The notes under the pieces were generated by a model that was not told the origin of the DNA, ran no database searches, and saw only the letters and a program-made list of their open reading frames with translations. Below are positions 31,303 through 57,301 of a stretch of DNA of 64,000 nt, one piece after another. The number at the start of each line of letters is the position of its first letter. The first letter of the stretch is position 1. Source of the DNA: Muricea muricata (lineage: Eukaryota > Cnidaria > Anthozoa > Malacalcyonacea > Plexauridae); the NCBI GenBank assembly GCA_963855995.1, contig OY979717.1, forward strand, positions 43,486,107-43,550,106, written 5' to 3'. The position numbers and the translations under genes are program-made.

Positions 31303-32068
31303 ATAGCAAGCAATTATTATTGCTGCCGCAGCGAGTGAGCAAGGCAGCAATCCTAATTTATATATGGTGGTGAAAATCACGATTTTGCTTTAGCGCATAG
31401 CATGACGGTACCAGTAATGCCGCAGGCTAAAATTAAACCGGCAACCATCTTTCATCTGTTCTCTGTTTCAGCTTTGATTTGCTTTGATTAGCTTTGAAAA
31501 CACCTTGGCTACTGACGATTAGTTCAGCATCCACTTCGACATGAATTGTTGATCATGGCATGCAATTCATACTGTAATTACCAGATGGAACTGGGATTCT
31601 ACATTATCTGTGCAAAACACGGCGTTCTTTCAGTCAGTAATGTATTAGTAAGGTATGCGTATGAATGTATATTAGTAATTACTAACTAATATTATATAAT
31701 AAGAAGCTAATTGCCTAAGAACTCGTTTAACAACTTTGTTTTCAAACAACGTTTAAAAAAATCGAGTGATTCGCAAGGTTTCAAGGAGGATATAGTAATA
31801 AAAGGAATAAAATGTCCGTTTTAAATAATGGAATATTAAGTTGCTGTGAATACCTAGTATTACGATTAGATGCATCCTGACGCTTTATAAATTGGGATGA
31901 AATAAAAGCTGGGACACAACCCGTCATGCATGCACTTGAAAGCCCTGAATTTTTAGCTGAAATTTTTGGTTAAAGTTTTGATTGCAGGTTTTAAGTCCAA
32001 ATATCGTATAAGTCATTTTATGTCTAAACATGGCTCGATTATTTTTATGTTATTTTATACTAAAAATG
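31303..32068. other. Spacer between LINE and Polinton
   Basis: No gene was recognised. A hairpin TTGCTGCC...GGCAGCAA lies at about 31320-31352. The Polinton target duplication AAAATG is 32063-32068. The word ATGGCTCGATTATTTT at about 32030-32045 is nearly repeated just right of the Polinton (54142 on). Confidence 0.6.
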
Positions 32069-32251
32069 AGTAGTATATGATAGGCACTATAGCTCACCCA
32101 ATCTTTTTCCTTTTTTTTCCTTCTCCTTCCTCCTCCTCCCTCCCCATCCTCCTCCCCTTTCCTCCCTCTTCCATCCGCACAAAAAATTCGTTAAAAATTC
32201 TTTTGAAAACGTTCCAAAAGAATTTTCCTAAAGTTTTTTCAACGAGTACGT
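32069..32251. repeat. Polinton left terminal inverted repeat (183 bp)
   Basis: It pairs with 53955-54138 with only a handful of substitutions and 1-base gaps. The outer 30 bp are identical, followed by a pyrimidine-rich tract (about 32101-32172) and ATCCGCACAAAAAATTCGTT. The inner end is at ACGAGTACGT. The low divergence between the repeats contrasts with the many gene lesions, which could mean gene conversion between ends. Confidence 0.97.
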
Positions 32252-36641: not shown

Positions 36642-39600
36642 TTTTTCCTAGATCAATGTCTAATCGTTCCTTGACGATTCTTTTAAAATCGTCGATTGAT
36701 TTATACGTTCAGTCATCGCCAACTGCGGGTGGTTTTGAATTTTCCATTTTGATGCGCATAAATTCTTTAACATAATCACGAAATAATGTGTCCGTGGTTT
36801 TTTCAAAGTGCCAAACTTCATAGATTTTTGTGATCCTGTATCCTTTTTCAATGGCTTTGTTGATTTCGTTCGTGCACCACGTTCCTGTAATCGCTCGTTC
36901 TTCCTCAGTATGTTCGCATTTCGTCTGTTGTTGTTGTTCGGCACAGGTTCTACATAACGGGAACAGTAACTTTTCGGATTTCCCACACATCGTTCGAACG
37001 GGTAATACCGGGTGGTACAAATTACGAGGTGGGTCTATTTTACATTTGATGAATCCAAACCATTTACTATCGTAACTTATTGGGTTTAAAATCTTTGTCG
37101 GGTGCCCGACAGGGTAGGTTTTAAAACATTGAACCGTTGGGTATAAGCTTACAAAATCGACGTAACGTCCTTTTTCGTTATCTTTGAATTTGTACTTTAG
37201 TTTCGTAACGTTGGTACGTCCCCCGAAAAAAGCATCTCTTGGATTTAGGGGCGTTATTATTTTAACATCGTTTTCTTTTGACCATTTTTTGAAATCGGAG
37301 TTTTTTGTTAGCTCGCATTCGTAGACTTCTATCAAGTTATAACCTAAATCCGTGATTTTCTTATTTTTAATTTTGGTTTTATTTTGGAGCTCCCCCATTT
37401 CCATTTGATTACACGGATTAATTGTATCCTTAGTGTAACATTTTTCACATCCGTGCCAGAGGCAACCCTGGAACTCGTATATTGTATTTGTGGCTTTACA
37501 AAATCCGTCTACTTTTCCAACGGTCGGAATATTATATTCTCCACCGTTCATAGCGTGTTGAATATGTACGTTTTGCGTATCGGAAATCCATTTTAACCAG
37601 TTCATTGAAATTTTACTAAACGTTTCAGTTTTTTCATCATCCTTGATAATACCTATCGTATCTTTTGCCATGAATTTAGAACGATACACATTCACGCAAA
37701 CCGACGCTATTGTTATGTACTGAAGAGGGTCGATATTTGCGATGGTTATAAAATCTTCTCTAAATTTCATCATCGATCTTCGTAAAATGTCAACGTCGGA
37801 TCGACAGTAATCTTCTAATTCTTTTCTAAAGTCAAACATATAATTTTCGTCGATTCTGTCTTGATGCCATTTTAAGAATTTTTTACGATTATCAGACATC
37901 ATTTGGTCAGGACCGTAATATTTTATATCCGGAATTGGTCCTACGTAATCCTGGTTTTCGGGGACGTTAAAGAAATGTGGGAAATATCCTTTTTTCATTT
38001 CGGTAAGTCCAAAAGTTTTTGGAAAATCGGCTAATCTACTTTGGATAAAATTTACACCATCCGTAAATCTTATTTTATAATTTTTTATTTGCATATACAT
38101 AATTTTTGTGCCGTTGTAAATACAAAAGGGTTTAATTCCGTTCTCAACGCAATATTTTAGAATGAATTGTGCGTCGAAACTTTTTGCGTTGTGTGCAATG
38201 AACGTATAATTTTTATGTTTGTCCTGAAACACGAATTTACAAAATTCGTCAATCGTATTAAAAGTCCACTCGGAGCCGTCAAAGTCTTGTACGTTTACGT
38301 AATTGACAATGTGCGTGCCTGTGTTTTGTTGTGTCTCGAAGTCGTAGAACATGTAGTTACGTGTATAAGTCTTGCAACAAAGGCACCTGTCTTTTGGGTT
38401 TAGGTTACCACAACCTATGTCAAATTTACTAGGGTTTTTCATATTTTTTATTTCTCTGTCGGTACAATTTAGGACCTCTTCTATTTCTTCTTTGGTCCAA
38501 TCTACCATATCTTCTATTTCTTCCCTGTTCCAACCAATTGATCGTACGGCTTTAATTAATTGGATTTCGTCTTCACTTTTAGCGGTTTTTGTACTGTGGT
38601 AACTACGGTGGCGTTTGGGAACTTTGTGCAATGACCTCCTTTCGTTTCGACCACTTTCATATAACACTTGTGGTCTTGTAAATTACGATATTCCCCGCAA
38701 TTACTACACTCCGAAAAACCACACCAACGGTTCTTTTACATTTTAGACATTTTTGTATTATGTTACAAATAATATCAGGTTTGTCACCTTTTGATCTATT
38801 CCTTTTATGTTCGTCAAAACATTTTTGACCTAGGAACGTTGCGATTACAATTGTTACACGTTATTTCTGGACCCTTACAATCACTATCGTACCTGAAACA
38901 CGACATACATTTTTTAGGGCATTTGTGCTTGTCACGGTGTGTGTAAGGTTTTTTACATGTGTGACAATAGTAATCCTTACCCAGGAACCCTGGCATACTT
39001 GTGATGACATCGTAGTGATTCTTGTTTTTGTACAAGTAAATTATTTTACCATCTATACTTTCACCTTCTGACGTGTATATGATTTCGTTGAAATAGTCGG
39101 CGTCCACAATATTAATTTGCACGCCTAAGTGTTTTGCGAAGGTATTAATGTCTTCGAGAGTGTTTCCAAAATCGTTAATTTCTACCCCGGCTTTTTCGTG
39201 AAGTTTACGCGCTTCGTCTTCCTGTAGCTTTCGAGAACCGTTAAAACCATTTTTAATCTGGGACTTTGTCCATTTAGACTTATTAATGTTTGCCTGTGCC
39301 GTTACGATTGCACGCGCTAAACATATAGTATCGGCATTTTTAATGCAAATTATACTTTTTTTATCTACAATATTATTCTTATCTATTTTTAAACGACCGG
39401 TACCTCTTGGTACTTTTGTGGATTGAACTTCAACCAGGAGTTCGTTTAGTGGGACGCTTTTGTATTCTACAAATTCTAGTACGGCTTTAATTAATTCGTA
39501 AATGAAATTCCTATCGTTTGTTATTGTTAATAACTTTGTACTGAACGGTTTTGCCCAGGTAGGATGTGACACAATAAGTCGAATTTTGTCACCCGTTACC

Positions 39601-40218
39601 AGTTCACGTTCGTTGATTGTCATATCTAATGCTTTTTGGAACACGTTTACCGGGTCAATTGGGTACTTGTTAATTTTGATGGTATACGAATCAAAGTATG
39701 TTGTGAATTTTGCATTTGAGTTTGATCCGATCTTTATAACTTCAAATGGTGGTCTTATGTTTTTACCTATCTTTTTAAGTTTGTTGTCGAGCTTTCTTCT
39801 GGTATCCCTGAACTTTTTCTTTCCTTTCCATTTTAGGTCGTCTAAAACCTTAGCTTGTCTCTTCTCTTCCTTCTTGATCTCGCGCTCCCACTTTTGTGTT
39901 TCTTTTTTAAGGTGGGCTTGGTTTTCCCTCTTGCGTACAAGCTCTTCCTTCCTGCGCATTTGCTGAAACTTATGCTGTTCCTTTTTGCGCACTTGTTCCA
40001 TTGCTTTCTCTCGTTTTTCCCGTTCCTGTTTGTTTTAATCGTTGAAGTCTTTCTCGTTCTTTCTGCTTGATACGGCGTACTTTTTCTTCTTCTCGCTGTT
40101 TTAACTGGCGTGCTTTCTCTTCTTGTCGGCGGATCTTTTCTTCTTGCTGTTGGATCTTCTTATTTTGTTTCGCAATTATTTTACGGAACTTCTCGTGGAC
40201 GGCATTTGAAATGTTCAT
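36642..40218 (-). pseudogene. polB: Protein-primed family B DNA polymerase (PolB), N-terminal three quarters
   Basis: Start at ATG 40218 after ATAAATAAAGAG. The head (to about 39.8 kb) is a KER/Q-rich coiled coil. An OTU-like region follows (C in DTICLARA, H in NHYDVI) and then CxxC zinc motifs (YYCHTCKKPYTH, CMSCFRYDSDC). The exonuclease motif is YDFET (about 38340), Exo II is FIAHNAKSFDAQF, and palm motif A is DFVSLYP (about 37130). Lesions: a frame change near 40.03 kb, two or more near 38.65-38.81 kb, and an in-frame TGA at 36709-36711, beyond which the frame continues to the nested element. Polymerase motifs B and C are missing. Intact PolB would copy the linear genome from a protein primer. 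Confidence 0.9.
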
Positions 40219-44582: not shown

Positions 44583-45622
44583 CTATCGTACCCTAACCAT
44601 TTTACCAATGCCATTCCGTCTTTTTTCCCCACTACACACAAGTATTTTCTCCACTCTGTACGTTTCGTCTTTTTTATTTACGATGGATAATTCTTCTTCG
44701 TAAAATTTTCCAACGATTGGCTCTCCTTCGTGGTCCTCTAATTCGTAGACGGTCGGGTCGCCTCTCAAAACTTTTGAAATCGTAAAAATTTCTTCGGTAA
44801 AATTAGCTTCGTATCCTTTTTTAAAAACGTTTTTGTATTTACTTACTCGAACCGTATCCCCTACTCTGAATTTCGGTAAGGAAAGTTTACCAAAACCCGA
44901 ACCGAAAAGTGTAATCCATACTTCGTTTTCGTTTTTACGATTCACGTCTTTCGGTTTCATATGGATGGTCGTGTGTTTCGTATTATTATAATTTCCAACG
45001 AGCTCGTCTAAAACACTAATCCAATTGTAAGTCCCCTTGCTATAAAAATATTTCCACATTGCGGTTTTTAAAGTTCTATTAAACCTTTCGACGATCGTGG
45101 CTTTCTTTTCAGACTTTGTAGAAAAATAATTACACCAACGTTATAAAATTCTTTTCCTTCATCGAATTGAACGAGGTTTGGATATTTTCCAAATCTCCCT
45201 TTAAAATTTTTAAGTAATTTCTTAACGGCTTCCGTCATATTTTTAACGTCTTTCCTGTAAACGGGAATGGTAAACGCGTATCGACTTAGATTTTCAACTG
45301 CTGTTAAAATCCAACGATATCCTTTGTTTTTATTTGCGTATTTCCCCATATCAACCAAATCCATTTGCATTTGATCTGCGAGGTTTTTCACAAAAGTTTT
45401 TCGAAATTTATGTTTTCTAATCACGGGTTTGTATCTCGTGTACGTGTCCTGAGTTATTAACCATTCTTTAACGAGTTTTCGACTTACTTTTAATCCATCC
45501 TCTCTTGCTTTTTGATATAATTTTTCGGCAGATCGATAACCCGTTTCCGGATCGTAATATATATCTCTTAAACCTTGTTCGATAGCGAATTCCTTATCGC
45601 TAATTTCGTTTTGTTTTGGCAT
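44583..45622 (-). pseudogene. Polinton integrase (rve family), one frameshift
   Basis: ATG at 45622 (preceded by GAAATA) opens the N-terminal half, with the first catalytic Asp in QMDLVDMGKY and the second in LVQFDEGKEFYN. The frame then shifts at about 45120-45130 (a T-run), after which the third residue, Glu, appears in TIVERFNRTLK of the other frame. The C-terminal half (to 44583) has an SH3/chromo-like beta module (KFRVGDTVRVSKYKN). Polinton integrases insert the linear genome with a 6-bp stagger, matching the AAAATG duplication. One indel disables this copy, unless it is an assembly error in the T-run. Confidence 0.93.
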
Positions 45623-45755: not shown

Positions 45756-46412
45756 TCAATTTATATACAATTCGAGTAACAAACTCATATCAACCTTATC
45801 TTCAATGTTCGTATCGACATCAAATAATATCCTGTTAAATTGACCGTTGGTAATTTTAACGCTGCTATTGATACCTTTAAATTGGGTAACCGTGGAATTT
45901 AAAAGCTGATCCGACGGTATCGGAAGCGTGGCTAACGCACAACTCCAGTGACCGTCCGTATCGATATTCCCCACCGTTTTTACGATATTACAATTAATAT
46001 TCACGTACCTGAGACCCTTGTTTACGTCTACTACGCTCGGCGAGGTTTTCCACGTTCCGCTGTTTACGATTTCGTTTTCGGGGAAACCTAATAATTTTCC
46101 AAACTTTTTAAGATTTAAATTTTGCGATTCCGAATAGATTTTACACGTGTTATTGTGTTCGTTAGCTTCCAATTTTATCGATTGCTTCCCGAGTTTTTCC
46201 TCGATCATATCGAATGTCCAGTAACCCTCCTCGAAGGGAACCTTTGTCGTCCCACGCATAACGTGATCGTTTTTATTGGTAATGACGTTTTTGTAATTCC
46301 AATAGACGGCCGCATTTTTTAACGTCATTAAGGACCCCGCAGGTTTTATTATACAAGTGTCGAAACGGAGTTCCTTTTCATTGTTCTCAATGAATACGTT
46401 TATTTTACTCAT
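45756..46412 (-). CDS. Probable minor capsid or fibre-associated protein, 218 aa
   Basis: Intact frame from ATG 46412 (ATAAAGATAA before it). The layout is beta-rich: INVFIENNEKELRFDTCIIK, KNAAVYWNYKNVI, then PFEEGYWTFDMIEEKL and LGFPENEI, ending KVDMSLLLELYIN. The GYWTFDMIE...LGF pattern recurs in cnidarian Polinton proteins that I take to be the minor capsid (penton-type) component, but I cannot verify a single jelly roll. It starts 20 bp from the divergent plus-strand gene at 46433, so both share a promoter region. Confidence 0.5.
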   Translation of the reverse strand: MSKINVFIENNEKELRFDTCIIKPAGSLMTLKNAAVYWNYKNVITNKNDHVMRGTTKVPFEEGYWTFDMIEEKLGKQSIKLEANEHNNTCKIYSESQNLNLKKFGKLLGFPENEIVNSGTWKTSPSVVDVNKGLRYVNINCNIVKTVGNIDTDGHWSCALATLPIPSDQLLNSTVTQFKGINSSVKITNGQFNRILFDVDTNIEDKVDMSLLLELYIN

Positions 46413-46432: not shown

Positions 46433-47644
46433 ATGGAAGATGAAAACATTGAAATGAAGGACCGCGAACGATATGAGGAGGAGCAACGAAGAGTTAACGA
46501 AGAAGAGAAACTAGTTTTTTCGACGACAGGAGACCCGGTGATGAAAGCATTCTCATTATCGACGGTTCGAATCCGGTTTTTACAAGGGTGGATGCCGATA
46601 GACCATCGGCATCCGAAATCCCTAATGTGAGACGTGATGTCGGTGTTATGAGAAGACATATCATTCACGACATGAAACAGTTTTTAAAAAAAGGACTTGG
46701 ACTTACAATTAATAAAGGGGATGGGCCAAATTCGACGAAAATATACGATAAGGTAAGATTTACGACCGACAAGGATAATAAGATAATGGTGCCACGTACA
46801 AAGGTAAAAAAATCTTAATTTTAAAAGATGGGAAACTTATATACTCGGCGGATAAAACGAAAGCACCGCTCGTTAACGAATTTAAGGAATTACTTAAAAG
46901 GGCAGACGCCGAACATCAAAAAACACCAACTCCCATAGCCGAAAAACGTGCCGGAGTCGACCTTCCACAAAACGTCATGAATGACATTATTGGGAATGTG
47001 AACGATTGAATAGCGGAATAGATTCCAGCACGGAAATAACGGCTAACGAGTTAAGAGAATTAAGGGGCACGTTATACGCAAGAGAGGGAGGTGAAGAAAG
47101 AATTAAAGCCTTGGGTATCGAAATGGAACGTTGGAAAAAGGAGTCGGATAAAGCAAAAGCCGAAGGAAAAAATAATAAAGCCTTACTTTACGATGCAATG
47201 AGAAAAGCTGCAGAATTAAAAGCCGATAAAATAAGATTAAAACTTAATCAAAAACCCGTGAGCGAGGAAGTTCTAAGTATGATAGAAGAAGAAACCGATG
47301 TCAACGATTTGACCAGATTAGAAAAATTTAAGAAGTGGGCTAGGGAAAATGTCGTTGGTGTGTCTGCAATCGCAATATCCATAGCAGGAATAGTTACCGC
47401 AGCCGTTATGGGTGCAAGAAGCGCTGTAAAAAAAGGTGGTAAAGCCTTAGGTAAATTCGCTAAGGGTGTTTCAAAAGTATTTAAAAAACTCGGTCCGTTA
47501 TTTTCCGCATTAGGAACGCTCTTATCAAAAATGATTTTGGCAGGCAGTCAGGGACTTTTGTGGTTGTCTCAAAATTTATGGGTTTTGTTCCTAATAATAA
47601 CCTCTATCGTTTACAACGAATATAGAAGAAAAAGAAGAAGATAA
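46433..47644 (+). pseudogene. Polinton-specific protein with C-terminal membrane helix, two frameshifts
   Basis: ATG at 46433 opens an acidic helical head. The coherent product then moves to another frame (about 46590-47000, KLIYSADKTKAPLVNEFKEL), and again to a third section from about 47006 (that codon is TTG, not a start). This section has a long charged helix (GGEERIKALGIEMERWKKES), a hydrophobic stretch (VVGVSAIAISIAGIVTAAVM) and the tail GLLWLSQNLWVLFLIITSIV followed by RRKRRR. This head-helix-membrane plan, with SQNLW near the end, is familiar from other cnidarian Polintons. It may act in virion membrane interaction. Two indels break it. Confidence 0.7.
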
Positions 47645-47988: not shown

Positions 47989-49230
47989 ATGCTTACAGAA
48001 AAGAAATTAGGAGAAAGAATGGAAAGCCTCGATCCATAATTTTCAAGATACAAGGATGCGAAGATTATGGGAAAAAGACTTTTTACCGAAGTAACGTTCA
48101 ATCCAAGCGTTATCAACCCTGGGGAATCCGTTTACATTTCAATCCCAACCCTCGGAGCGAATATGTGCCTAGTCCCAGACACCTTTTTCCTAACCGCAAA
48201 GTTCAAGAGCAAAAACACAAAGTCCTGGTTCCTGAATAATCTTGGAAGGCTTTTGGTGAAACAGTTACAAGTTATGGTTGGGAGCCGAGAAGCTTGCTAC
48301 ACGAACGACCAGGAAAGTTTGTATTCCGTATACAAAGATCTGTGGTTACCAGTCGATCGAAGGAACAATATGGTAGACGTGGGTATTATGAACGAAAACA
48401 CCAGAAAACTAATATCAGAAGACGATAGCGCCGATAAATCCGTTGTTGCTGACAAAACCGTTGTCGACGTCTTCGATGGTCGGGTAAGAATTAAACTCGG
48501 AAAAATCCTAAACGATCACGGGTTATACGCACCTCTTGATGCCGGTAACATCATTAAATACAAGTTAATTTTCCCAAAAGCAGACGAAATTATGGTTGCA
48601 CAAAGCAGTCAAAAAGTTGCAGGGTACACGTTAGAAGACGTCAGGTTAGAATACTCATCGATAGAAAATCCCGACGTGTACAACAAAGCCTTGAATAGCT
48701 TTCAGAGTCGAACGCTCGTCTTCGAAGACGTGACTTTCATCGATGAAGAAAGCTGGGGGAAGGACACAACGATCATCAACAAAACAATCAATTTACCGTG
48801 CTCGTCGATGAAACACATCGTAATGCTTTTCAGAAAGAAAACACTTACGGATAGCAAAGAATACGTTTACCCAAAAATCAAGAGAGTGGATGTTACCATC
48901 GAGGGTAACCCAAACTCCGTTTACAGCCAAGGACTGGTCAAATCAAAATTATTCGAGGAAGCAAGAAAAGTTTTCCTAAACTATGAAACAGATACCCTTT
49001 CCCTAACCGACTTCTTCGCAAAAGACAAGTTCGCCCTAGTTATCGAATTGCGGACTTACCCGGATAACGACGTTTCCGGTGACGGAAGAAAGATCCTGAA
49101 CACCCAAAATGGGATCACACTCGGTATCAAAAAGGATAGAACATCAGAAGACATCGTGTGTAATACTTTTGTTGTGTCTGACAGGTATCTAAACTTCGTC
49201 AATATGATGTTCCGAAATCTCGAAATATAA
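47989..49230 (+). pseudogene. mcp: Major capsid protein (double jelly roll), early in-frame stop
   Basis: The likely native ATG is 47989 (preceded by ATAAATAAAGAGTCAAAT). Sixteen codons later an in-frame TAA stands at 48037-48039, and the frame then stays open from there to 49230. An internal ATG at 48067 would give a 387-aa product. The sequence FNPSVINPGESVYISIPTLG, NNLGRLLVKQLQV, DHGLYAPLDAG and the YL/NFVN tail match the Polinton/adintovirus-type double-jelly-roll capsid protein. Loss of about 26 residues would leave both barrels, so the stop may be tolerated through re-initiation. Assembly: trimers forming icosahedral capsids. Confidence 0.9.
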
Positions 49231-49234
49231 ATAA

Positions 49235-49831
49235 ATGAAATTTGAAACACCATTAAATATGATTATCGTCGGGGTGACAGGTTGTGGGAAAACTTACTAC
49301 CTTCTTAAAATGTTAGAAAACGATTACAAAGGTCATTTTGAATACATTTTCCTAATTTGTCCAACGTATTTGTGGAACAAAACGTACCAGGAATGGAAAT
49401 ATAAAGACGATAAAAAATTTTTTCCAATCCCCTGTGACCAAGACGATGTAGAAAATTTTCTAAAATTCGTTACGCACTATTACAAAGACACGAACAGTTT
49501 AATCATTCTCGACGATTGTGCAAGCAGTCAATACGTTCGATCGAGCGAAATCGTAAGACTTGCCTTTTCGGCAAGACATTACGGATTCAGTACAATTATC
49601 ATTACCCAACAATTAACATCGATCACAAAACCGTACAGAACCAACACACAGATCTTGATCACGTTCTACAACCCTGATAAGAACGATATGAAAACGTTAT
49701 TAGAAGAGTCCGTCGATGGTACCGAAGAAGAATACCGTGAAATCAAAGATAGTCTTAAGAAAAACGAATATTCCACGCTCGAAGTGTACCGTCGCTCTCC
49801 CTGGGGACATAGAATTGTGTACTCATCATAA
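49235..49831 (+). CDS. FtsK/HerA-type genome-packaging ATPase, 198 aa
   Basis: ATG at 49235 follows TATAAATAA. Walker A is GVTGCGKT (residues 13-20) and Walker B SLIILDD (88-94). A downstream ITQQLTSI segment fits the sensor region of this family. The length is typical of Polinton and virophage A32-like ATPases. It pumps DNA into preformed capsids. The frame is intact and starts 4 bp after the capsid gene's stop, so they are co-transcribed. Confidence 0.93.
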   Translation: MKFETPLNMIIVGVTGCGKTYYLLKMLENDYKGHFEYIFLICPTYLWNKTYQEWKYKDDKKFFPIPCDQDDVENFLKFVTHYYKDTNSLIILDDCASSQYVRSSEIVRLAFSARHYGFSTIIITQQLTSITKPYRTNTQILITFYNPDKNDMKTLLEESVDGTEEEYREIKDSLKKNEYSTLEVYRRSPWGHRIVYSS

Positions 49832-49837
49832 TAATAA

Positions 49838-50316
49838 ATGAGCTCTGAAAATATTAATTTCCCAGACGTAAACTTTGAAATCCCCGAAGAAACTCCTGGT
49901 GATGACGACTTACGCGAGAAACTTATTTCGTTAGCCGAAAAAGGAAAAATAAACTACTCGCCAAAATATATACAAAAAGCAAACCGAGATGCTTTGGAAA
50001 AAATTAAAATAAAATACGATAGAAAAATTACCGAAAAGTCATCCAAAATGGTTTCGAATTACTCGTTTCCAAACTCTCGGACATACTGGAAAAAACCACC
50101 CTAATCGAAAGTTCGTCCGAATTAAAACAGAAATTAGATGAAAACGAATTGTTTAAAGAAGAATTCACCGAATTGATAAACGATGAATTAATGCCTTACA
50201 TCCCTAAAATCGGATTGGTAAGCGGCGGTGTAACCGTTGTCGAAGAAATAATAAAAAAACGTATGGGAAAACAAGGCGAAATGGGGGAACCTCCTGACGT
50301 CGATCTGGACTCCTAA
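49838..50316 (+). pseudogene. Polinton acidic coiled-coil protein, one frameshift
   Basis: ATG at 49838 after AATAATAA. The head is acidic (FPDVNFEIPEETPGDDDLRE) and the body basic-helical. The frame closes at 50104, but another frame continues the helix (SKLSDILEKTTLIESSSELK, ELMPYIPKIGLVSGGVTVVE) to TAA at 50314-50316. The shift is at about 50045-50065. Seven bases separate it from the ATPase, so it belongs to the late structural run. Unrecognised; a scaffold or core protein is possible. Confidence 0.6.
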
Positions 50317-50322
50317 ATTGTT

Positions 50323-50352
50323 TTTTTCATATACGATTACGTATATGAAAAA
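50323..50352. terminator. Hairpin between convergent genes
   Basis: TTTTTCATATACG-ATTA-CGTATATGAAAAA forms a 13-bp perfect stem with T/A flanks on both sides. It lies between the plus gene ending 50316 and the minus gene ending 50355, as expected for a bidirectional terminator. Confidence 0.7.
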
Positions 50353-50354
50353 AT

Positions 50355-50753
50355 TTAAAGTCCCGGGTAAAGTGGCGGTGCGGACGGTTGTTGATTTTGG
50401 AAATATTCTCTCACCGTCTTCTTCTTTGCAAGCTCAGATTCGACGCCCTTTAATTCACCCTTCCCAGCTTTAGTTTTCTTTTTACCTTCTTTTACCTTCT
50501 TTAACGATTTAATCGTCCCCTTACCCCCCTCCAATACCACAACCAACCCACCAAGCACCGCAAGCACTATTGCGGAAGGGAATACTATGGCCACCGCTAC
50601 ACCACCACCAATAAAAATTAATTTCAATAACGTTTTCCCAACCAACTTTAATTTCTTCCTTCTAGAATTCCCTTTCATTTTCGATAACTCCGTCGTTAAT
50701 TCTTCTTTTAATTCCGTAAGTTCCTCTTCTATGAAATTAATAATTTGATCCAT
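50355..50753 (-). CDS. Membrane protein with overlapping PSAP and PPxY late domains
   Basis: ATG at 50753 after AATAAAG; the frame is intact (132 aa). A helical Glu/Lys head precedes a basic stretch (NSRRKKLKL), then one long hydrophobic region (KLIFIGGGVAVAIVFPSAIV to LGGLVVVLEGG, about residues 43-77), and a Lys-rich region. The final residues are QPSAPPLYPGL: PSAP at 123-126 and PPLY at 126-129, sharing the proline. In retroviruses and other enveloped viruses PSAP recruits TSG101 and PPxY recruits NEDD4-family ligases. Adenovirus protein VI, a membrane-lytic capsid protein, also carries PPxY. A similar entry, traffic or budding role is inference from these motifs. Confidence 0.75.
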   Translation of the reverse strand: MDQIINFIEEELTELKEELTTELSKMKGNSRRKKLKLVGKTLLKLIFIGGGVAVAIVFPSAIVLAVLGGLVVVLEGGKGTIKSLKKVKEGKKKTKAGKGELKGVESELAKKKTVREYFQNQQPSAPPLYPGL

Positions 50754-50772
50754 CTTTATTTATTATAATAAA

Positions 50773-50907
50773 ATGATGGTAGAAAATATATTTGAAATTG
50801 GGGTTTGTGTACTTATTAGCTCTCTTATCGTTTACGGAAAGGATATAATGAAATGGGTCTCAAAACCTCGTGAAACACCAGATATTGACTTGGGCAATAA
50901 TAAATAA
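50773..50907 (+). CDS. 44-aa membrane peptide
   Basis: A tiny intact frame (ATG 50773, TAA 50905-50907) divergent from the late-domain gene by 19 bp. A hydrophobic segment ([14 protein letters not shown]) is followed by a polar tail ending [14 protein letters not shown] precedes the start and TAAATAA follows it, 5 bp before the next gene. Likely a small virion membrane component; unrecognised. Confidence 0.5.
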
Positions 50908-50912
50908 ACAAG

Positions 50913-51176
50913 ATGATACATATTCTAGGTTACGGAATCGGACTATACATTTTAAAAAATATTTTAACAACCAATGGACCACCCGGTCCACAAGGCCCGC
51001 CAGGATTACAAGGAATTAAAGGCGATAGGGGAGACCAAGGATTACAAGGACCACTTGGGCCAAGACGACCCGCCAATTTTAAAGGACTTAGTAAAACGAT
51101 ATTGAACAAGGGGGAACAAAAAAGCGGAAGCGTCCTGGAAAACATAATGGCGAAAAGGTCTACAAATAAACAATGA
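50913..51176 (+). CDS. Membrane-anchored collagen-like protein, 87 aa
   Basis: ATG at 50913. A short hydrophobic head ([17 protein letters not shown]) is followed by Gly-X-Y triplets ([20 protein letters not shown], then GLQGPLGP, about residues 22-50) and a basic tail. This is a short collagen stalk behind a signal anchor. Its stop overlaps the fibre gene's start (ATGA, 51173-51176), implying coupled translation. It may link the trimeric fibre to a membrane or capsid. Collagen-like fibre proteins are known from phages, giant viruses and some Polintons. Confidence 0.75.
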
Positions 51177-52753
51177 GTTTAAACTTTGGTTACTCACCAC
51201 CAGGTTTGGGGAGAATTAAAAAAGATATCAAAATGAACGGTCATAAAATCTTAGACCTTCCATCACCAACGTCGGATTTGGAACCTGTTACGAAAAGTTA
51301 TGCGGACACACATTATTCTAGTGGTGGCGGTGGAGGGCAACGTGGTCCAAAAGGTGACAAAGAAGATACGGGACCACAAGGACCAAAAGGTGATCAAGGA
51401 GATACGGGGTCGCAAGGACCAAAAGGCGACAAAAGTGATACAGGCAACCAAGGACCAAAAGGCAACAAAGGAAATGTAGGTTTACAAGGCCCTAAAGGTA
51501 ACCGAGGACCAAAAGGCGACAAGGGAGATACAGGCGCGCAGGGGCCGAAAGGAGACAAAGGCAACCAAGGTAGTGGTGGTTCTTCAAAAGGTGACAAAGG
51601 AGATACGGGACCGCAAGGGACAAAAGGTGACAAAGAAGATACGGGACCGCAAGGACCAAAAGGTGATCAAGGAGATACGGGACCGCAAGGACCAAAAGGT
51701 GACAAAGGTAATACAGGCGCGCAAGGACCAAAAGGTGATCAAGGAGATACGGGATCACAAGGGTCAAAAGGTGACAAAGGCAATAGAGGCACGCAAGTGT
51801 CAAAAGGTGACAAAGGAGATACAGGCCCACAAGGGTTAAAAGGTGACAAAGGAGACACAGGTAACCAAGGACCAAAAGGCGACAAGGGAGACACAGGCAA
51901 CCAAGGACCAAAAGGTGATCCAGGCTCCGGTGGATTATCCGCTTCTAGTTTTACAATGCAGGGGAACATTGATATGAACAACAACAAAATCACAAACCTC
52001 CCAGATCCAACATTAGCAAACGACCCTATTACAAAACAATACGCTAACCGAGTACACTTAACCGACAGTGGATTTACGATGCAAGACAACATAGGTATGA
52101 ACAACCACGAAATATTAGGTTTAAACCCGGTTCCATCCGTCGATACGGCAGCCGTGTCCAAAAGTTATACCGACACGGCGTATATTAAAAAAGACACCAA
52201 TATTGATATGAACGGCCACCGTATTATCCCTTTAACATCTAGCGAACCGATCACAAAAGGTTTCGTCGAAAGGTATTATTCAGATTATACGAACATTATG
52301 ACGTTTAAAGGGAAGCCCGGTAGCGTTACAATTCTAAGACAAGACAATATGGTCGACTCTCCTGCGAACGGACGTGCTAAGAAAACGTTAGACTTTTCAA
52401 AAGTAGGCAGCAGTTATCGAATAAATTTTTCCGTCCAACCAAAACTCCCAAACGGTGTTTACACTTACGAGATGGGTGTTGTTTTAACGACTTCTAGAGG
52501 ATACGATGTAATGTTGTGGGGCGATTGTGGTGGTTCTGGGTACAATGCGTCAACGAAATATAAGTATTGGAGTTGGAGTTATGAGAATAAGATTGCTCAT
52601 AACGATGTACAGGGTGGGATATTCCATAGAGGTACTGGTAAAAGGGTACGTATTCAAGGTTCGTTTTTGAATCGGGGTACGCGTATTTACGGGCAAGAAA
52701 TTTCGCTTTCGTTAGATTATGAAAATGGGAAAACATACGAATTTGTTCTGTAG
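51173..52753 (+). CDS. Collagen-like trimeric fibre protein with repeated adaptor motif and head
   Basis: The 526-aa frame is intact. After an N-terminal motif ([20 protein letters not shown]) comes a long Gly-X-Y shaft (residues about 57-255; [14 protein letters not shown], nearly all with KGD). Three more copies of the motif follow: [60 protein letters not shown], each ending in a TKxY/SKSY-like anchor. The last 170 residues are a beta-rich head ([34 protein letters not shown]). The MNNxKIxNL...TKxYA motif is that of phage and Polinton fibre adaptors. Role: host-cell or surface attachment, presumably as trimers. Confidence 0.88.
51340..51925 (+). repeat. Coding minisatellite of the collagen shaft
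   Basis: Units of 27 bp (three GXY triplets) such as GGACCAAAAGGTGACAAAGG recur about 20 times with silent and replacement differences. Repeat blocks of 27 and 54 bp are visible, so shaft length should vary between copies. Antisense Leu/Pro-rich frames here are shadows of this repeat. Confidence 0.85.
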
Positions 52754-52998: not shown

Positions 52999-53978
52999 AT
53001 GAATATAGACCCAAGACAATTTATTAATTGTAGTCAAACCCGTAAAGAAAAATACGGAATTTTTCATCGCTGTGCGGATTGTAAATACCACTTTTGTTAC
53101 GATGAGACAAAATATTCTCATCCGGACCAATACAAAGACTGTGAACATCTCGTAAAGGATGACATCTTCGGAGACCTCACTTGTCTCCGATGCGGGCTTC
53201 GATTCACTTCGGTCCTCAGTACATGCAAGCATCACCATAAAAAGAGATTTCTTGACTCGACTGATACTCGGATTTTTATTGTTGTGCTGATTGTGATTAC
53301 CACTTCGTCGACGGCGACCCAAAATTCAGACATCCTAGCCAATACGAAAATTGTGAACACACAGATCAAAGGATGGTTGATAACCAACTCGTATGCTTAC
53401 GTTGTGGACTCAGATTTACAGGACCACCTCCCATACCATTTGAACAAGAGGAAAAAACCAAGTGTAAACATACCCGTTTAGAAAATATGTGTGGGACCGT
53501 ATTTTGCACAAATTGTGGTTTAGTTGATGAATACATACCTTATGATGAAACGTGTAAACACCCTCATCTCACAGAAAAGAACGATAACACGTTATGTTCA
53601 AATTGTGGTTTATTCGAAGAATACGAGTCGATAGACGAACTCTGTTTAGACCTTGGTTACCACGCGAGAATACAAGAAAACAAAACTAACCTAAACGAGC
53701 ACTCGAAAGTCAAGGACCTAAGAGAAGCCGCAACAAAGGCCGGTGTTAAACGCGTTACCGTAATGTCTAAAAAACAACTTTGTAAAGTTCTAGGGATAGA
53801 GAGTTCAAATGAAGGTAAGTACATTCTCAAAAACCTAAAAACAGGTAAAGAGCATAGACTCAAAAACCAAAAAGAAATCTCAGACAAGTTTGGTATTTGC
53901 CAAGGATCACTATCGTTCCTTTTGAAAAAAGGAAAAGCCACCGTAAACGGAAACACGTACTCGTTGAAAAAACTTTAG
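52999..53978 (+). pseudogene. Tandem zinc-ribbon protein with C-terminal SAP/HTH-like region, one frameshift
   Basis: ATG at 52999 after AATAAAGA. The N-terminal block has CADCKYHFCYD...CEHLV...CLRCGLRF, which repeats after the break as CADCDYHFVDGDPKF...CEH...CLRCGLRF, so the module is duplicated. More CxxC ribbons follow (CKHTRLENMCGTVFCTNCGL, CKHPHLTE...LCSNCGLFEEY). The C-terminal part holds LREAATKAGVKRVTVMSKKQ, resembling a SAP/Rho-N helix pair, and ILKNLKTGKEHRLKNQKEIS, like a NUMOD/HTH DNA-binding tail. The frame breaks near 53270. It may be a late transcription or DNA-binding factor. Its stop (53976-53978) lies within the terminal repeat. Confidence 0.75.
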
Positions 53979-54138
53979 GGAAATTCCTTTGGAACGTTTT
54001 CAAAAGAATTTTTAACGAATTTTTTGTGCGGATGGAAGGGGGAGGAAAGGGGAGGAGGATGGGGAGGGAGGAGGAGGAAGGAGAAGGAAAAAAAAAAGAA
54101 AAAGATTGGGTGAGCTATAGTGCCTATCATATACTACT
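53955..54138. repeat. Polinton right terminal inverted repeat (184 bp)
   Basis: Mirror of 32069-32251. Its first 24 bases overlap the last codons of the zinc-ribbon gene ending at 53978. The right border is fixed by the AAAATG duplication at 54139-54144. Confidence 0.97.
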
Positions 54139-54144
54139 AAAATG

Positions 54145-55786: not shown

Positions 55787-57301
55787 TCAATGTCGTGAAA
55801 CAAAGTAAGTCAACATTTTAAATTTCGCGTCAGCTTTTTCAAATTTCAGCGACGCCTTCGATGAATGCAATCGACAATTATCACTTTCATTTTTGCAATT
55901 ATTTTTATCGCTGCAAAAATTAAAAACATCACAAGACTTATCTCGTAGACACTTACTCTTGCAGGATTTCACATCAACCGTACTGTTACTCGTAGGGCGG
56001 GCTTTTGTTGAAACACGAAGATCTTCCACAACAAAATCAGTTTTTCCGTCATTAATCTTTGTTGGAAATATTATAATTTTGGAATTTTTTACTTTCGAAA
56101 GAGGATGCTTCTGATTTGCTTCTCCACTATAAAAATAGCAATTGCTGAATTTGTAAGCTATAGACAAACAATGACGATTTTCAAAACATCTGGATATGCA
56201 AGATGTCTCCGTATCAGTTTCAAACGTCGAGATAAAATTCTCCAGGTAGTAATTCTTGATCGTGATGCCAACGGACACTGTTTCTTCACAAGTATTAACA
56301 GTACCGGAATGTAGCAGCTGTTGACAGTACAATTTTTCAACCCCAAGCAACTTTTTTTTCAAGAAATTATAGTTTATCCCTGTGCCAGCCATAAAGACAT
56401 TTGTGAATAAACTCGAGATAGGTTCAATTTCATAAGACGTCGGGACGGGATTTTCTTTGACTGTGGACGCCCAGTACGTGGCATCTCCGTCTTTGGGCGG
56501 AGCTGCCCCAACAGTTATTGTCGTTGTTTCAACCTCTTTGTTAAATTCCGAAGCCGCCTTTCTTTCACTTTGGTCTAAGGTAAAGCCTCCACTCACACTG
56601 ACTAAGCCGGAATAGCTTGCCTGTGCTGAAACACTTATCTCTCTAGAAGACGCTGTTTTGTATGAATTTGAAGTCATACTGTACTGTTTCATGAAGCGAG
56701 CTCCAAACACTACACTTGTTGGGAAATGCGTCCCATAATACTTTACAAATTTCAGTAAGTTAGCTGTTGAATAGTTTCCTTCTAACGATTTCGCCCATCG
56801 GTAAAAGCCCGGGTGCAATGGCGGAGGTTGCGTTAAATCAATTTTACTAAAATAGTAAGAACATTTTGCTGACGAAGTGATATATACTTTCTCTCCAGAA
56901 GAAACTTCGGACGAAGTTTGCTTATAACTTGAACTAGCTGAGAAACTGAATGCACCAAATCCACCACTAGCTGAGACTGAGGTAGAGAGAGACTTGTGTA
57001 GCTCAAAAGTATTTTGTATGACCGTTGAAGCAAATGATGTAACACAAGATACATCAGGGATCACAAGAACACCTTTAGGAACATTGTAACGACAGTCACT
57101 GGTGTGTTTATTCTCGCTGTAATCAGCAGCAAAAATTTGATGAGTGAAACCAGGATCATGTCCATTAGAATTAGGGTAACCTTTTATGATGTCGTAACCA
57201 AGCAAGGCGTAATCCAGGTCAGGAAAGGTATTTCTAAAATTTGGATTTTGGTTCTGGTTTTCACACTGTCGTATTGTTTTGGTTCCTATGGAATGTTGCA
57301 A
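55787..57301 (-). CDS. MACPF pore-forming domain protein with C-terminal PAN/apple-like repeats
   Basis: The 504-codon frame is intact to TGA at the low end. Its first codon at 57301 is TTG and an in-frame stop lies just upstream, so the true start and signal peptide are probably on an upstream exon. The MACPF core spans about residues 25-330, with the family signature YYGTHFPTSVVFG at 188-200 and amphipathic GGFGAFSFSASSSY near 113. The C-terminal part carries two Cys-rich PAN/apple-like modules (CISRCFENRHCLSIAY and CKSKCLRDKSCDVFNFC). Cnidarians use such proteins as venom toxins, in egg or immune defence. It could be a toxin-like or an immune effector gene; sequence alone cannot decide. 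Confidence 0.85.
   Translation of the reverse strand: MQHSIGTKTIRQCENQNQNPNFRNTFPDLDYALLGYDIIKGYPNSNGHDPGFTHQIFAADYSENKHTSDCRYNVPKGVLVIPDVSCVTSFASTVIQNTFELHKSLSTSVSASGGFGAFSFSASSSYKQTSSEVSSGEKVYITSSAKCSYYFSKIDLTQPPPLHPGFYRWAKSLEGNYSTANLLKFVKYYGTHFPTSVVFGARFMKQYSMTSNSYKTASSREISVSAQASYSGLVSVSGGFTLDQSERKAASEFNKEVETTTITVGAAPPKDGDATYWASTVKENPVPTSYEIEPISSLFTNVFMAGTGINYNFLKKKLLGVEKLYCQQLLHSGTVNTCEETVSVGITIKNYYLENFISTFETDTETSCISRCFENRHCLSIAYKFSNCYFYSGEANQKHPLSKVKNSKIIIFPTKINDGKTDFVVEDLRVSTKARPTSNSTVDVKSCKSKCLRDKSCDVFNFCSDKNNCKNESDNCRLHSSKASLKFEKADAKFKMLTYFVSRH

Follow-up and report, generated by a model that had tools for sequence, protein, structure and literature searches.

A predicted membrane hairpin protein with overlapping late-domain motifs in a Muricea muricata Polinton, a possible recruiter of ESCRT and ALIX

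We describe an intact 132-aa gene in a bounded Polinton of Muricea muricata, whose product is a predicted membrane hairpin protein that ends in overlapping motifs of the TSG101, NEDD4 and ALIX types. Judged from the sequences of the family, this tail has likely been selected as a cassette recruiting ESCRT and ALIX. The reading that we favour for the whole protein is that it is probably a membrane-anchored ESCRT/ALIX recruiter of a Polinton virus, acting in nonlytic, (quasi-)enveloped exit, and we lean slightly towards exit or envelopment as the use of the tail itself. More tentatively, the hairpin with its fused tail could be an old and widely kept gene of animal Polintons that have an infectious phase and ESCRT-wrapped capsids. 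Transposons of this kind may have left cells as membrane-wrapped particles. Polintons are usually viewed as naked-capsid viruses or as transposons; the proposal, if true, would account for their passage between cells and between species although they have no obvious envelope gene.

In the window (the whole stretch of 64,000 nucleotides that was analysed), the gene and its parts are as follows:

50355..50753, minus strand: ORF, the 132-aa gene for a predicted membrane hairpin protein with a late-domain tail
50376..50387, minus strand: PSAP, TSG101-type late domain, residues 123-126 (P[ST]AP in 174/194 relatives)
50367..50378, minus strand: PPLY, PPxY late domain, residues 126-129 (PPxY in 90/194 relatives)
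50358..50372, minus strand: LYPGL, YPxnL motif of ALIX type at the very C-terminus, residues 128-132 (YPx1-3[LI] in 174/194 relatives)
50532..50621, minus strand: uncharged residues 45-74, a membrane segment kinked at FPS (58-60), from sequence and models

The ORF runs intact over 132 codons from ATG to TAA and its product ends in QPSAPPLYPGL, as had been claimed in a sequence-only reading of this DNA. That reading had also placed a proline common to PSAP and PPxY at the C-terminus, and Pro126 indeed belongs to both PSAP and PPLY. However, it had counted these two late domains only. A third, the ALIX-binding YPxL, is matched by the final five residues, LYPGL. Three late-domain motifs are thus packed into ten residues, and among the relatives the third is kept as widely as P[ST]AP. 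The tail holds P[ST]AP, PPxY and YPxnL, any of which in an accessible region is a mark of viral late-domain proteins, and it is coil in the low-confidence models. YPDL is described as a binding epitope for ALIX-family proteins across eukaryotes in parts of PMC2397435, and a title cited there gives the motif as YPXL/I. When the last 25 residues of the window's protein were shuffled, P[ST]AP arose in 0.38% of the shuffles, PPxY in 3.8% and YPx1-3[LI] in 9.9%, and the three together in 0/200,000. Moreover, the motifs are rare in the stop-to-stop stretches of at least 60 codons in the six frames of the window: elsewhere in these we found one P[ST]AP (its stretch is 63 codons long), no second PPxY, and two instances of [LIFV]YPx1-3[LI] with no stop crossed, at 48865 and 19611.

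The gene had been ascribed to a Polinton, and it does lie within a bounded element of 22,070 bp, whose main features are these:

32069..32251, plus strand: left terminal inverted repeat, 97% identical to the right copy over 184 columns
53955..54138, minus strand: right terminal inverted repeat, pairing with the left one (183/184-bp repeats)
32063-32068, plus strand (left), and 54139-54144 (right): target-site duplication AAAATG, 6 bp
36709..38667, minus strand: part of DNA polymerase B (Pfam PF03175, E 1.5e-39)
45068..45622, minus strand: integrase core, rve (Pfam PF00665, E 1.9e-8)
49235..49831, plus strand: packaging ATPase of the Pox_A32 family, A32-type (Pfam PF04665, E 2.7e-15)

A 6-bp target-site duplication is the rule for Polinton/Maverick elements. 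Here it flanks terminal repeats, and the element holds PolB, an rve integrase and an A32-type ATPase. Since the repeats and the duplication bound a stretch that contains PolB and the integrase, we regard the element as a bounded Polinton. Several ORFs make up the PolB and integrase regions, which are apparently broken; the piece at 38814-40001 has no Pfam match, and 44583-45059, in another frame and likewise without a Pfam match, is a possible continuation of the integrase. Two ORFs, 48067-49230 (387 aa) and 45756-46412 (218 aa), are candidates for jelly-roll capsid proteins by position and look only. Neither gave a match in Pfam or PHROGs, and the 387-aa ORF had no match among PDB sequences. 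No fusion glycoprotein was seen by eye among the element's ORFs, and scans of IMG/VR with the 132-aa family, the 387-aa ORF and PolB returned no relative. A search of viral-contig DNA for the pattern P[ST]APP[LIMF]YPx[LF], with serine as TCN codons only, gave three matches, all of which we took as chance: two lay in stretches between stops that were 22 and 37 residues long, and the third in one of 233 residues, 181 residues before the stop, at a locus where ORFs overlap on both strands.

The family was collected from a single-sequence search (57 proteins), a search with a profile of 30 sequences (the best 120 of 122 matches) and one with a profile led by distant clades (the best 120 of 332 proteins with E no higher than 1). 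Among the matches listed there were 215 distinct proteins, including the window's own. Before counting, 21 of the 215 were left out that had no helix before the tail or a stop within 8 residues after it. The genomic context of the gene, by comparison, is that of the window's copy, seen in its element. In the remaining 194 proteins, P[ST]AP and YPx1-3[LI] were each found in 174 (YPx1-3L in 165) and PPxY in 90. P[ST]AP and YPxn[LI] occurred together in 162/194 and all three motifs in 73/194. At least one motif was present in 190/194, the four with none being P0045, P0102, P0103 and P0120. The sequence-only reading had proposed, as a check, that PSAP and PPxY be looked for in homologues, and at least one of the two is kept in 182/194, across clades with 32-44% body identity. 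The pattern was similar in reduced sets: five representatives at less than 50% body identity had P[ST]AP in 5/5, YPxL in 5/5 and PPxY in 4/5; 20 representatives at 70% identity had P[ST]AP in 16, YPxn[LI] in 14 and PPxY in 14; and the first 122 matches alone gave 84/101, 82/101 and 64/101 for P[ST]AP, YPxn[LI] and PPxY, respectively.

Every sequence was then given to the nearest of six references, the reference bodies of different clades being 32-44% identical. Clade 1, the window's own (n=43), had P[ST]AP in 35, PPxY in 40 and YPxn[LI] in 34; clade 2 (n=14) had them in 14, 9 and 14; clade 3 (n=33) in 31, 33 and 33; and clade 4, the largest (n=104), in 94, 8 and 93. Thus, the TSG101- and ALIX-type motifs are constant across the family and PPxY is variable, being best kept in the window's own clade. 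Since the largest clade has mostly lost PPxY, TSG101/ALIX function would be the more constant part family-wide. Against a strict ALIX reading, the strict form LYPxL is found in only 16/43 clade 1 members, compared to 34/43 for YPxn[LI]. A second YPx[LI] stands within the first 14 residues (e.g., MTYPNL, MRYPEL) in 85/104 members of clade 4; this N-terminal motif was found in 0/43, 0/14 and 0/33 members of clades 1, 2 and 3. P0068, P0072 and P0127 are clade 4 relatives, and P0127 represents 159 member sequences. Three clade 1/clade 3 pairs have longest contigs of equal size (P0013/P0096, 553,834; P0011/P0178, 1,454,967; P0020/P0213, 1,233,674), and because of these equal sizes the two lineages probably share genomes, which is what one would expect of mobile-element families.

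We then compared the tails with what composition alone would give, by shuffling, within each of the 194 proteins, the final 25 residues in 300 rounds. The shuffled means were 0.65 for P[ST]AP, 5.97 for PPxY and 16.07 for YPxn[LI], compared to 173, 89 and 173 observed; for P[ST]AP together with YPxn[LI] the mean was 0.06, compared to 161 observed. The motifs are therefore kept among relatives beyond chance, within the bounds set by kinship and retrieval: the sequences are related, so that the motif counts are not independent, and retrieval needs exact 5-residue words, so that words in the tail could favour proteins that keep it, although the searches also brought in 21 copies that lack the tail region. 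On a tree built from the body only (173/194 sequences), the motif states changed 15 times for P[ST]AP, 10 times for PPxY and 10 times for YPxL. Body columns had a median of 14 parsimony changes each, so that the body is conserved as well. Within the motifs, there were 3 changes at the last P of PSAP and 6 at the P after Y, and 11 at the first P, 14 at S/T, 16 at the residue before Y, 12 at the last L and 23 at the free x. A and Y had zero, but both are the anchors of that count. Of the motif positions, only A, P, Y and the P after Y stand out over the body. Three further alignments, with 30, 39 and 103 members, had A125 and Y129 invariant and P123 and P126 at least 90% conserved; these alignments are no independent test, because their rows were picked by hand and each holds at least one motif.

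The variation that the tails do show was informative. Among 169 anchored tails, the second position of P[ST]AP was S in 98 and T in 62, the x of YPxL varied (D, N, G, S, E or P), and there was a P after Y in 160/169 and an L or I before Y in 160/169. With S/T and L/I exchanged and x left free, this is the pattern that a binding motif predicts. The spacing from P[ST]AP to YP was 2 residues in 134/162 tails and 1, 3, 4, 5 or 6 residues in 28/162.

These positions bear on an alternative in which the protein is a non-virion trafficking adaptor, LITAF-like, that rides or redirects endosomal sorting through PSAP, PPxY and YxxPhi, for example to remove host surface proteins. The host protein LITAF carries PSAP and PPSY together near its N-terminus, and SAPPSYY, found in 7/104 clade 4 tails, resembles the LITAF sequence. 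To our knowledge, however, YxxPhi requires neither a P after Y nor an L or I before it, both of which are present here in 160/169 tails as they are in ALIX motifs; nor, as far as we know, is the P[ST]AP part needed for AP-2 sorting. Still, YPxL also fits the YxxPhi signals of clathrin adaptors, YP[GDNES][LI] being the form met here, and the YPDL of EIAV binds AP-2 (mu2) besides ALIX, as described in parts of PMC2803184. We consider an adaptor role unlikely.

The variability of PPxY bears on a second alternative, an entry-side use like that of adenovirus protein VI. Adenovirus VI has membrane activity. It is an internal capsid protein of a DNA virus, as the 132-aa protein might be, and its PPxY serves entry-side trafficking (PMC2841620); its abstract mentions no P[ST]AP/LYPxL pair. 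Hypothetical "membrane-active capsid core" ("Macc") proteins have been described in adintoviruses and their kin; they are virus-encoded and some have predicted holin-like hydrophobic domains, as does the 132-aa protein in being hydrophobic, but "Macc" is a polyphyletic label (parts of PMC11071296). The sequence-only reading had drawn the comparison with VI through PPxY, which is the best-kept motif in the window's own clade (40/43) but mostly lost in the largest (8/104), making VI the weaker analogue; across clades 1 to 4 the motif is kept in 40/43, 9/14, 33/33 and 8/104. Overall PPxY is found in 90/194 relatives, compared to 174/194 each for P[ST]AP and YPxn[LI], and a viral fold search with the first, low-confidence model gave no match (best E 6.6). 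We therefore set aside a VI homologue as the leading view, since PPxY is the motif least kept family-wide and no tie by sequence or fold was found with Pfam or in the viral fold search, and we judge a VI-like role to be improbable. A 212-aa ORF at 47006-47644, which by eye is lysine rich with an amphipathic-looking stretch and a hydrophobic segment near its C-terminus, looks a better VI-like candidate than the 132-aa protein.

That the tail is functionless, its proline richness passed on by descent and its motif matches a product of composition, is very improbable: the sequences are homologous and the body is also conserved, but shuffles that keep composition almost never give P[ST]AP (mean 0.65 of 194), the motifs persist at 32-44% body identity and through changes in spacing, and clade 4 bears the N-terminal YPx[LI] as well.

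For the body of the protein, we used the 175 members with a length of 125 residues or more. Their longest run free of D, E, K and R had a median length of 37 residues (19 to 48), an FP lay inside it in 172/175 members, and its flanks were net positive on the N side in 175/175 and on the C side in 174/175. The net positive charge on both flanks points to a common side of the membrane for the two ends. Thus, the one long hydrophobic region of the sequence-only reading is present as the uncharged residues 45-74, but rather than a single span we infer a hairpin of two short helices broken at FP, with both ends on the same side. AlphaFold models from 30 and 103 sequences were of low confidence (pLDDT 64 and 65, pTM 0.23 and 0.30); in both, the helices were interrupted near residue 58 and the tail was coil from 121 on, including the last 12 residues. 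Pfam gave no match above cut-off for the 132-aa protein. The weak hits were ATP-synthase I chain (E 0.008) and DUF6353 (E 0.03), both below the curated cut-offs, and we rejected these, together with PDB matches at E 0.03 and 0.3, as hydrophobic/helical noise; P0016 and P0020 bear DUF6353 as a precomputed label. Names assigned to relatives ("membrane protein YsdA," "phosphopantothenate synthetase") are mutually inconsistent and were disregarded.

In the exit reading that we favour, a charged N-terminal helix would be followed by two short membrane helices joined at the conserved FP kink, then by a helix rich in lysine and, last, by an ESCRT-recruiting disordered tail, with both protein ends probably cytosolic. 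P[ST]AP would bind TSG101 (ESCRT-I) and LYPxL would bind ALIX, and in some clades PPxY would engage NEDD4-family ligases. The protein would mark the membrane patch where Polinton capsids get wrapped, and release would take place without lysis, by budding or inside vesicles (quasi-envelopment). PTAP and YPDL bind ESCRT-I and ALIX directly, PPxY acts via ubiquitin ligases, and PTAP and PPxY are synergistic, according to parts of PMC2958808; an optional PPxY would therefore make sense.

Several known systems resemble parts of this proposal. One is the late domain of Ebola virus VP40, an overlapping PTAPPEY in which P[ST]AP and PPxY share one proline as they do in PSAPPLY, and most ebolaviruses have YPx(n)L/I elsewhere in the VP40 N-terminus (parts of PMC6357148). 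The presence of all three kinds of motif in one viral protein is thus already known from VP40 and is not new here. VP40, however, is a matrix protein, belongs to an enveloped RNA virus and carries the tandem within its N-terminal domain, whereas here the motifs form the C-terminal end of a predicted membrane hairpin encoded by a double-stranded DNA element, with the ALIX-type motif fused on. The ALIX site of EIAV Gag p9 is LYPDL, the sequence found in 72/104 clade 4 tails, and the window's LYPGL likewise fits YPxL; p9 differs in belonging to a retroviral Gag, and the relevant passages assign PTAP, as a further late domain, to HIV-1 p6 and not to p9 (PMC2803184). Hepatitis A virus, icosahedral and conventionally non-enveloped, exits via ALIX/HD-PTP, and its nonlytic vesicle exit through ESCRT-associated Bro1 proteins is the kind of route proposed here, but its pX signal is an extension on a capsid protein and works by way of a YxxL motif and Bro1 domains (parts of PMC9410543). 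Since this virus leaves in vesicles by an ESCRT-associated route, no encoded fusion glycoprotein would be needed. A putative fusogen of a nematode Polinton/Maverick (Widen et al., as reported in passages of PMC10680173) is a further sign that some animal Polintons resemble enveloped viruses in how they handle membranes, but it is separate from the 132-aa protein.

The 2024 survey that named the "Macc" class uses neither "late domain" nor "PPxY" in its main text; "transmembrane," "envelope" and "budding" are absent from the Polinton capsid paper PMC4028283; and none of six sought terms is used in PMC11071308. Within the PMC open subset, "polinton" and "ESCRT" occurred together only in unrelated contexts in the texts retrieved. 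Three overlapping late-domain motifs, kept over deep divergence, allow peptide-binding and release assays to address whether animal Polintons produce particles and by which route these would leave cells, and the tail-bearing gene could serve as a marker for Polintons with a possible extracellular phase.

Finally, we considered the surroundings of the gene:

50323..50353: strong inverted repeat that separates the ends of two ORFs running towards each other; terminator-like, from RNA folding
50754..50772: 19-bp gap from the minus-strand ATG to the plus-strand ATG at 50773, with one non-AT base

As had been claimed, the gene stands on the opposite strand to its neighbours, a minus-strand gene between plus-strand ORFs. 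It is preceded by the packaging ATPase, an ORF of 88 aa and a short ORF whose end at 50316 faces the 3' end of the gene; next come a 44-aa ORF, hydrophobic at its N-terminus, and collagen-like ORFs. The latter are two collagen-repeat ORFs at 50913-52753 (Pfam PF01391, E 9e-6, just under the cut-off, and 1.1e-24), the larger of which has a non-collagen, fibre-like C-terminal part. At the right terminal repeat, the ORF at 53373-53978 has TFIIB-type zinc ribbons (PF08271, E 1.5e-8) and is a possible transcription factor of the element. Just outside the element, an ORF with MACPF and PAN domains (55787-57301; PF01823, E 4.6e-31) is probably a host gene. The inverted repeat at 50323-50353 forms a stem around ATTA with a T-run and an A-run on either side. 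The RNA of 50300-50370 folds with an MFE of -22.1 kcal/mol (z -4.7), and 0/200 shuffles folded as well, so that the repeat looks like a two-way terminator. The gap at 50754-50772 contains a perfect 14-bp AT palindrome and is a possible promoter common to both divergent genes, which would then have very short leaders.
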